Assembly (NCBI RefSeq): GCF_014697615.1
Contig: NZ_JACJSD010000032.1
Location: 1 to 64,000, forward strand
Direction of reading: 5' to 3'
Source of the DNA: Nostoc sp. FACHB-280
Lineage (GTDB): Bacteria > Cyanobacteriota > Cyanobacteriia > Cyanobacteriales > Nostocaceae
DNA: 64,000 bases
The notes beneath the pieces were generated by a model. That model did no database searches. It was not told where the DNA came from and saw only the letters and a program-made list of their open reading frames with translations. Below are positions 4,681 through 24,470 of the stretch, piece by piece. How positions within the stretch are numbered: the stretch's first letter is position 1; every line of letters starts with the position of its first letter. The translations under genes and the position numbers were made by a program.

Positions 4681-4845
4681 AGAGGGTGTTTGAAAAGTGG
4701 TTGGTTGTGATTATTAGCACTTCTTGATCCCCCCTAACCCCCCTTTTTAAGGGGGGAAATGCTTTAAAGTCACCCTTTTTTAAGGGGGATTTAGGGGGAT
4801 CTAAAATGTTTGGCTACTAACAATAGGACTTTTAAAACATCCTCT
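4681..4845. repeat. Palindromic MITE-like element with nested inverted repeats
   Basis: An outer imperfect 18-bp inverted repeat (4681-4698 and 4828-4845, 15-16 of 18 matching) encloses an inner palindromic block from GATC at 4726 to GATC at 4801 built of runs of C, T and G. The inner block resembles the insert found in frame inside pbpC at 22961-23016. It has no coding capacity and fits a small non-autonomous mobile repeat. Confidence 0.7.
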
Positions 4846-21797: not shown

Positions 21798-21833
21798 ATT
21801 AAATCACTTTAAATCTTTTCTTTCTTTGCGTTC

Positions 21834-21876
21834 TACCCTGCGGGAAGCCGCTAACGCGTCTATGTGTCCTTTGCGG
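21834..21876. repeat. Dispersed 43-bp repeat, copy B (5' of the A2M-like gene)
   Basis: Inverted, nearly identical copy of 15951-15993. It sits between the A2M-like gene and pbpC, in the shared promoter region. Confidence 0.8.
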
Positions 21877-22148: not shown

Positions 22149-24470
22149 ATGAGACTAAGTAGGCGGCTCATCCGAAAGTCAAAATTCTTCTTAGCTATTG
22201 TATTTGTCTGCCTAGTGGTGCGGCTACTGCCATATTTTGCGCCTATTAATACCGCAGACATCGCCCAAAATCAGTTAGCTTTGGAATTTAGCGATCGCAA
22301 TGGGCTACCATTAGGAACAATCCTCACCCGTGACCAAGAACATACCGCCGTTGTACCCTTAAATCAAGTTTCTCCCCAATTTATCAACGCCATTATCGCC
22401 GCCGAAGATAGCAGTTTCTACCATCATGGCGCGTTGGATATCAAAGCCATTATCCGCGCCATCAACCAAGCCATTCACGCCAAACAAATAGTCTCCGGTG
22501 CTTCCACAATTACTATGCAGTTAGCACGGATGTTAGAACCATCCACCCGCAACTTGTCAGGGAAATTGCAAGAAATTTGGTTAGCTTGGCGGTTAGCGGC
22601 GGGAATGAATAAAGATGAAATTCTGGCTGCATATATCAACCGTCTGCCAATGGGCGGCAATATATATGGTGTAGAAGCCGCATCCCGCACTTATTTTTCT
22701 ACTCCCGCCAGTGAGTTAAATCTTGCCCAGGCTAGTCTTTTGGCTGCTATTCCTAATAATCCCACCTACTTTGACCCGTTACAACATTGGGATAGACTCA
22801 AACAACGTCAGAAATACGTCCTCAACCGGATGGTACAGGATGGTTATATCACTCAGCAAATAGCCGACAAAACCCAAACCGAAAAGGTAGTTTTTCAGTC
22901 TCGCCAACGGGGAATTATCGCTGCACCTCATTTCTTGTTTTGGTTAGCACATCAAATGCAGATCCCCTCAACATCTAGCGGTGTTCCCCCCTTTTTAAGG
23001 GGGGTTAGGGGGGATCATCTCATCCAAACCACCATCGACAAGCCATTACAACAATTCGTCGAAGCCCAAGCACAGCAAGTCATCTCCAACCTCGCCGCTA
23101 ACAATGTCCACGATGCAGCAGCTTTGGTAATTGACAACCACACAGGCGAAGTTTTAGCTTACGTCGGTTCACCTGATTATTTCAACGAAGCCAAACTTGG
23201 ACGCAACGATGGCGTACAAGCCCTACGTCAACCAGGTTCTACCCTCAAACCCTTTGTCTATGAGTTGGCGTTAGAAAAAAAACTGATTCGCCCAAACACC
23301 ATCCTGGCTGATGTCCCCGCCCACTACGCCATCCCTGGGGCGAAACTGTATAGCCCTACAGATTATACTCAACGCTTTCTCGGCCCGGTGCGGGTGCGGA
23401 TAGCTTTAGCCAATTCTTTAAATGTGCCAGCTGTGAGAGTATTAGAGAAAATTGGCGTACCGAATTTTTTAGCACGTCTGCATGAATTAGGCTTTACTCA
23501 CCTGAATCAAACCTCAGAATATTACGGTTTGGGTTTAACTCTCGGTAGTGGGGAAGTTACGTTATGGGAACTTGCTCAAGCTTACGTCACAATGGCGAGA
23601 CAAGGACAAAGTATCCCACTTGTGCCTACTATTCCCCACTCCCCACTCCCCGGTTTACTGAGCGAAGTCGAAGTAAACGCCCCTAACCAAACAACATGGC
23701 AACTGATTACTGATATATTGAGCGATCGCCACGCCCGTGCCACTGCTTTTGGTGTAGACTCAGTATTAAACTTGCCCTTCCCCGCCGCCGTCAAAACTGG
23801 TACTTCTTCCAACTTCCGTGATACTTGGACTGTTGGCTTTACTACCGACTACACCGTTGCAACTTGGGTAGGAAATTTCAACGGCGAACCAATGCGTCAA
23901 GTATCTGGTGTTATGGGTGCAGCACCTTTGTGGAACCGTATTATGTTGCACCTGCATGAAAACCAAGAACCCGCAGCGTTTACAGTTCCCCAAGGATTAA
24001 TTCAACTCCCTATATGTGCAAACTCTGGTTTACGCCCCACACCAGACTGTAACTCTGTTGTACAAGAGTATTTTTACCCAGAAGATAAAATTGCTTACGC
24101 AACTCAAGACAAGTTTAATTTACCACCCGAATATAATGATTGGTTAGCCAAGCAGCAATCAAATTTTGTTTCTAGTAATTTACGCATTGTCTCGCCCCAA
24201 AATGGTGATTTGTACTTACTCTATCCTGGTACAGAAGGACAGCAAAAATTAGAATTTAAACTAGCCGGAAATCCATCCTCTGTTGAGTGGCGATTGAATG
24301 GAGAACAACTAGATACACAATCAACTAATTTATTTTGGTATCTGCGTCCGGGAAACTGGAATTTAGAAGCGCAAAGTGGAGACTCTAGAGATAAAGTGAA
24401 TTTTCACGTAGAATTAGCCAAAATTCGACCAACAAAGCGGGGTTTTTCAGTTGTTAATTCTCAGAGATAA
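22149..24470 (+). CDS. pbpC: Penicillin-binding protein 1C, peptidoglycan glycosyltransferase/transpeptidase
   Basis: A 773-residue membrane-anchored bifunctional enzyme. After an N-terminal membrane segment (14-30) comes the GT51 glycosyltransferase domain (AAEDSSFYHHGALD, about 80-93; QLARMLEP), then the transpeptidase with S364-T-L-K367, S423-L-N425 and K549-T-G-T-S, and a C-terminal PBP1C-type domain (LRIVSPQNGDLYLLYPG). GGGGAG 8 bases before the ATG fixes the start. Divergent from the A2M-like gene. Odd: residues about 271-289 are encoded by a dispersed C/T/G-rich palindromic repeat inserted in frame, and residues about 495-512 by another. Both are in linker regions, so activity may be kept. 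Confidence 0.92.
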   Translation: MRLSRRLIRKSKFFLAIVFVCLVVRLLPYFAPINTADIAQNQLALEFSDRNGLPLGTILTRDQEHTAVVPLNQVSPQFINAIIAAEDSSFYHHGALDIKAIIRAINQAIHAKQIVSGASTITMQLARMLEPSTRNLSGKLQEIWLAWRLAAGMNKDEILAAYINRLPMGGNIYGVEAASRTYFSTPASELNLAQASLLAAIPNNPTYFDPLQHWDRLKQRQKYVLNRMVQDGYITQQIADKTQTEKVVFQSRQRGIIAAPHFLFWLAHQMQIPSTSSGVPPFLRGVRGDHLIQTTIDKPLQQFVEAQAQQVISNLAANNVHDAAALVIDNHTGEVLAYVGSPDYFNEAKLGRNDGVQALRQPGSTLKPFVYELALEKKLIRPNTILADVPAHYAIPGAKLYSPTDYTQRFLGPVRVRIALANSLNVPAVRVLEKIGVPNFLARLHELGFTHLNQTSEYYGLGLTLGSGEVTLWELAQAYVTMARQGQSIPLVPTIPHSPLPGLLSEVEVNAPNQTTWQLITDILSDRHARATAFGVDSVLNLPFPAAVKTGTSSNFRDTWTVGFTTDYTVATWVGNFNGEPMRQVSGVMGAAPLWNRIMLHLHENQEPAAFTVPQGLIQLPICANSGLRPTPDCNSVVQEYFYPEDKIAYATQDKFNLPPEYNDWLAKQQSNFVSSNLRIVSPQNGDLYLLYPGTEGQQKLEFKLAGNPSSVEWRLNGEQLDTQSTNLFWYLRPGNWNLEAQSGDSRDKVNFHVELAKIRPTKRGFSVVNSQR
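22961..23016. repeat. Dispersed palindromic repeat inserted in frame in pbpC
   Basis: From GATC at 22961 to GATC at 23016, with the CCCCCCTTTTTAAGGGGGG core also seen in the intergenic element at 4726-4801. It adds about 18 residues (IPSTSSGVPPFLRGVRGD) between the glycosyltransferase and transpeptidase domains. Confidence 0.8.
23653..23678. repeat. Second small hairpin repeat inside pbpC
   Basis: GTTTACT...AGTAAAC arms enclose GAGCGAAGTCGA, related to the repeat at 11648-11667. It follows a CCCCACT tandem run at 23634-23650 and adds residues of the type PGLLSEVEVNAP. Confidence 0.65.

Follow-up and report, generated by a model that had tools for sequence, protein, structure and literature searches.

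The locus analysed here raises the question of whether a dispersed palindromic repeat that lies in frame within a conserved penicillin-binding protein gene has been adopted by the protein or is only tolerated by it. The first-pass annotation of the window (the whole stretch of DNA analysed, 64,000 nucleotides) had called the repeat domesticated. We compared the gene with its orthologues, and the repeat with its other copies in the same genome (own-genome copies).

The pbpC gene and its repeat copy

The gene pbpC (22149..24470, plus strand) was assigned by its open frame, Pfam and NCBIfam, and encodes a bifunctional penicillin-binding protein 1C (PBP1C) of 773 aa. Pfam placed the transglycosylase domain (PF00912) at residues 55-228 (22311..22832, plus strand), the transpeptidase domain (PF00905) at residues 324-581 (23118..23891, plus strand), and BiPBP_C (PF06832) at residues 670-751. 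The product scored 588 bits against the NCBIfam equivalog TIGR02073 (PBP_1c; cut-off, 494), and was classed as PBP1C by this score together with the three domains. A copy of a dispersed GATC-to-GATC palindromic repeat, 56 bp long, occupies 22961..23016 (plus strand), with the left arm decayed and the right arm (CCCCCCTTTTTAAGGGGGGTTAGGGGGGATC) intact. It covers codons 272-289, between the transglycosylase and transpeptidase domains, and encodes 18 residues (IPSTSSGVPPFLRGVRGD) in frame. The in-frame palindromic repeat that had been proposed for the domain linker is therefore present. The size given for it, about 18 residues, holds for the segment itself; the net gain is 11-15 residues (a linker of 28 aa versus short linkers of 13-17 aa in the same genus). 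The further proposal that a repeat has created protein sequence is strong at the DNA level, where the repeat supplies coding sequence to the PBP1C linker; its translation is suggested by the open frame.

In the alignment with Escherichia coli PBP1B (5fgz), the insert segment falls directly ahead of the strand IFTTFD; PBP1B has about as many residues at that place. The AlphaFold model, made with 38 aligned orthologues, had a mean pLDDT of 54.8 and a pTM of 0.41, and both variable stretches of PBP1C were low-confidence segments, as was much of the rest of the model. Because the mean pLDDT was too poor, the picture of the linker as an exposed loop was not drawn from AlphaFold.

The repeat is dispersed in the own genome. 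A 101-bp query centred on it gave 64 matches (itself included), and the core CCCCCTTNNNAAGGGGG gave 107 matches with up to one mismatch, versus 2 for a reversed control pattern. From among the matches listed for these two queries, 46 regions were fetched. They contained 51 core clusters, of which 5 overlapped ORFs 80 aa or longer and 46 lay outside; among the matches listed, most copies of this numerous family thus lie outside genes, in agreement with the initial description of the repeat as one of intergenic DNA. The five overlapping clusters lay in pbpC, in a 393-aa AAA ORF, in an 868-aa FtsK-like ORF, and in two short ORFs that are perhaps not genes. The right arm of the pbpC copy was identical to several intergenic copies over 33-35 bases.

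Among 41 full-length GATC-to-GATC copies of the own genome, 37 were 71-87 bp long, and the pbpC copy was the shortest. All three classes of length modulo 3 were filled (12, 12 and 17 copies), and 26 of the 41 had no stop-free frame in any of the six; from the spread of the length classes and the lack of open frames, the repeat is not built for coding. Terminal inverted repeats (GATCCCCC..GGGGGATC) were found in the 41 copies, with ends that were set by the search rule and hence partly by construction. These repeats, and the lack of a coding capacity of its own, are features of miniature inverted-repeat elements (MITEs). A further core of the GATC-ended repeat was seen in the window at 4739-4755, and a repeat-looking stretch (CCCTGCGGGAAGCCGCTAACGCGTCTATG) was seen at about 21833-21870, between a large minus-strand ORF and pbpC.

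Linker occupancy among relatives

All 11 genomes of the window's genus contained pbpC. One copy (G001, C1:3646793-3649065) is seemingly broken by a frame change and a TAG codon; an assembly error is possible. Seven of the 11 genomes (G000, G002, G003, G005, G007, G009 and G010) had the repeat in the linker, and four (G001, G004, G006 and G008) had a short linker, e.g., LSNTQQETSPIF. Relatives outside this set were the best 80 of 178, of which 47 gave matches at the cut-off; loci were taken from 30 genomes, three of them already in the set. The linker was located in all 119 loci examined and was 13-65 residues long. The tree set of 104 rows was obtained by removing same-protein repeats and fragments shorter than 400 aa (L011 and L012).

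Under a loose rule, the 104 linkers held this repeat (24 rows), an unrelated repeat (14 rows), another long sequence (11 rows), or a short sequence (55 rows). The loose rule counts L066 among the carriers of the first repeat, which by eye has another sequence (SARRYANDSAQ..) and was dropped by strict patterns; 3 of the 14 rows with the unrelated repeat also failed the strict patterns. The strict patterns, which were derived from linkers and are hence favoured there, placed the first repeat in the linker of 22 rows and at no other position in the gene or flanks examined, and the unrelated repeat in the linker of 11 rows and elsewhere in one row (L073). Many Nostoc rows had the linker peptide IPPTPLEKGGLIPPFLRGVRGDQS or variants of it. 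The unrelated stretch, of the type TPPLTPPRKRGG, was found in rows from Trichormus, Anabaena, Sphaerospermopsis, Scytonema and others. Of the six genomes searched for it, at least four had it as dispersed DNA (at least 43, 27, 40 and 41 matches), with only 2 matches each in the other two. In L067 and L083 the PBP1C linker was seen to contain several tandem copies of the TPPLTPPRKRGG-type unit. In G009 a further insert was nested within the first repeat.

The expectation that the insert would be special to one lineage was not borne out, as many Nostoc rows and their relatives have the same repeat in the linker, and the unrelated repeat occupies it elsewhere. To us the most interesting point, absent from the first-pass annotation, is that different repeats lie in the same PBP1C linker in different lineages. 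Conservation of the insert in distant cyanobacteria, which would have spoken against the first-pass reading, was not found: the distant tree rows examined (L094, L098 and L101-L104) had a 14-aa linker without the repeat. The other class A penicillin-binding proteins of the genus (18 loci, L013-L030) contained no core with up to two substitutions on the strand read, a search that is in principle enough for a palindromic core. With the typed linker peptide as query, 12 of 40 genomes searched had matches, at a cut-off at which the focal copy was not among the matches. Four of the 31 places listed lay in frames longer than 300 aa, two being pbpC by position and two the ATPase described below.

A tree of the 104 PBP1C rows was built with FastTree without the linker. 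The linker states needed at least 25 changes on this tree; with the labels shuffled, the figure was 44.7. For the first repeat alone, 12 changes were needed, 8 of them forced by starred branches, and the unrelated repeat alone needed 9, 7 of them so forced; gain and loss are indistinguishable in these counts. In the orthologue alignments no empty site aligned cleanly across the junction, so a target duplication and the inserted length were not established. The repeat-bearing rows of the window's genus had common bases at both junctions, which were missing from the Nostoc rows. Such bases would fit a single entry into the genus, with losses or short exchanges afterwards, as well as they would fit repeated insertion. 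Exchange of alleles by recombination was considered as the source of the patchy pattern and set aside, as there was no local jump in divergence on either side of the linker, be it in windows of 100-200 bases or in flanks of 100-600 bases; very short exchanges could have taken place. We claim that the linker has been occupied recurrently, from no fewer than two separate origins, as it holds two unrelated repeat families; the claim does not extend to a number of insertions.

Constraint on the insert and rival explanations

We consider it highly probable that a permissive linker of PBP1C is occupied time and again by short mobile repeats, which persist if the frame survives and are translated as filler. 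A non-autonomous palindromic repeat (MITE-like or a small dispersed repeat, about 75 bp with GATC ends) would have entered the linker between transglycosylase and transpeptidase. As the linker tolerates changes of length and sequence, frame-keeping copies, with later indels, would persist, and copies that broke the downstream transpeptidase were presumably lost. The repeat in the linker would then be translated as filler. The linker would have been occupied in this manner on several occasions, in other genera by the unrelated repeat family.

One rival is true domestication, in which the inserted peptide was adopted by PBP1C, e.g., for domain spacing or for binding of a partner. It would agree with the wide spread of repeat-bearing linkers (24 of the 104 rows under the loose rule), with the recognisable peptide IPPTPLEKGGLIPPFLRGVRGDQS common to Nostoc rows, and with the pN/pS of the left arm (0.48), a value that could reflect some slight constraint or only the codon make-up. 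The pN/pS values were taken from nine equally long (31-residue) linkers in the same frame; this set replaced an initial set of 13 rows with mixed frames, in which the linker gave 0.776. Against domestication, pN/pS was 0.80 over the 22 codons of the insert, versus 0.27 in the preceding 16 codons and 0.08 in the following 100, and reached 1.67 in the right arm; the inserted peptide evolves with hardly any constraint on its amino acids. By a rule-based assignment, 12 of the 24 rows had the right arm in the frame of ..GVRGD, 8 in that of ..GGWGD and 4 in neither, and the frames differed even between the close pair G000 and G010. Close relatives have short linkers (e.g., G008 and G004, with proteins 93% identical), and in other rows an unrelated sequence lies at the same spot. 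Domestication for a conserved peptide is not supported by pN/pS or by the use of frames, and we regard domestication as very unlikely. Keeping of the frame seems to matter, and the peptide much less. On these sequence comparisons, "domesticated" should be replaced by "tolerated".

It is equally improbable, in our judgement, that the hairpin in DNA or RNA rather than the peptide is what matters, with the repeat regulating the gene from within, e.g., as an mRNA structure or an attenuator. The fold is strong (-32.6 kcal/mol for the 56-nt segment as RNA; mean of 23 pbpC copies, -0.55 kcal/mol per nt), as this explanation would have it. Strong folding is nevertheless inherent in the repeat sequence: the mean over 37 copies of the own genome, those in the three domain-bearing ORFs left out, was -0.62 kcal/mol per nt, and the pbpC copies were weaker (p = 0.031), the weakest reaching -0.29 kcal/mol per nt. 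Since the repeat folds by virtue of its own sequence, and slightly less so in pbpC, we gave a regulatory role little weight; many orthologues, moreover, lack the hairpin altogether (55 short linkers). Least credible of all is an old conserved variable linker that looks like a repeat merely through its C/G-rich make-up. In its favour, E. coli PBP1B has a segment of similar length at the same place. The identity of the right arm to intergenic copies over 33-35 bases, the 107 matches of the core versus 2 in the control, and the short linkers in 55 of 104 rows speak against it.

Other occupied sites and known systems

A second variable stretch of pbpC lies in its transpeptidase part (about 23634..23678, plus strand), where a C-rich heptad run (CCCCACTCCCCACTCCCC) is followed by GGTTTACTGAGCGAAGTCGAAGTAAAC. 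In addition to the C-rich heptads, GAGCGAAGTCGAAGT was seen in this stretch, and the orthologues had many different repeat-like peptides there. An 86-bp query from it gave 20 further, weaker matches in the own genome. The first repeat was also seen in frame in an AAA-type ATPase ORF (G000, C1:196711-197889; L138, 1509-2690), with the insert IPPTPLEKGGKVPPLLRGARGD; the ORF is 393 aa long, and its matches to AAA domains are weak. Within the genus, the loop of this ATPase held the same repeat in G010, the repeat with a nested insert in G001, a different repeat-like stretch in G004, G005 and G008, and no repeat in G002 and G003. Outside the genus, an orthologue with 67% identity had the first repeat in the loop too. 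The ATPase loop thus appears similar to the pbpC linker in its occupancy by repeats. A partial copy in frame was seen in the 868-aa ORF (G000, C20 near 51503; L140, 933-3539), which has exonuclease, PD-(D/E)XK nuclease and FtsK domains.

More tentatively, and with somewhat less than even confidence, we suggest that in Nostocales the PBP1C linker repeatedly receives whichever short repeats are active in a lineage, that no fewer than two unrelated families have entered the same few codons, growing in tandem or taking up nested inserts, and are translated there, and that the loop of the AAA-type ATPase is used likewise. If this is true, repeats would keep supplying proteins that are otherwise strongly conserved with new linker sequence and new linker lengths. 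The locus is a clear case, seen in replicate, in which repetitive DNA has come to encode part of a conserved enzyme, with many related genomes that have the insert or lack it, two unrelated repeat families, and two frames. It also offers a natural experiment on the tolerance of a two-domain enzyme to changes of its linker. A peptide derived from a repeat need not be functional, and the one in PBP1C probably has no function of its own. A literature search with limited reach into subscription papers found no report of repeats in cyanobacterial pbpC.

Small dispersed repeats (SDRs), reportedly described by Elhai et al. in 2008 (as cited in PMC3116915 and PMC3733652), are short mobile repeats of heterocystous cyanobacteria. 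The repeat in pbpC is like them in being a short, presumably mobile repeat in such cyanobacteria, a likeness drawn at the level of type. MITEs within genes, among them those of Anabaena PCC 7120, are small inverted-repeat elements without a transposase that can form in-frame fusions (PMC10969869). The pbpC element resembles them as a small inverted-repeat element in frame. In Nostoc PCC 7120, heptad repeats of the type GGGGA(C/T)T are 68% intergenic and otherwise intragenic (PMC4692102). The second variable stretch of pbpC holds a run of that type; the heptads are a tandem repeat, unlike the palindromic element of the pbpC linker. Rickettsia palindromic elements (RPEs) lie in frame within protein-coding genes, and RPE-like elements occur also in Wolbachia and Methanocaldococcus (PMC10969869, PMC2996958 and PMC3733652; RPEs reportedly first in Ogata et al. 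2000, 2002). The repeat described here shares with RPEs its in-frame presence within genes (pbpC, the AAA-type ATPase and the FtsK-like ORF). Unlike RPEs, it carries no coding frame with a conserved peptide (26 of 41 copies without an open frame; two frames in pbpC); its copies are about 75 bp long, and among the matches listed 5 of the 51 core clusters overlapped an ORF 80 aa or longer. In-frame palindromic inserts are already known from Rickettsia and others, and what is unusual here is the shared landing site.
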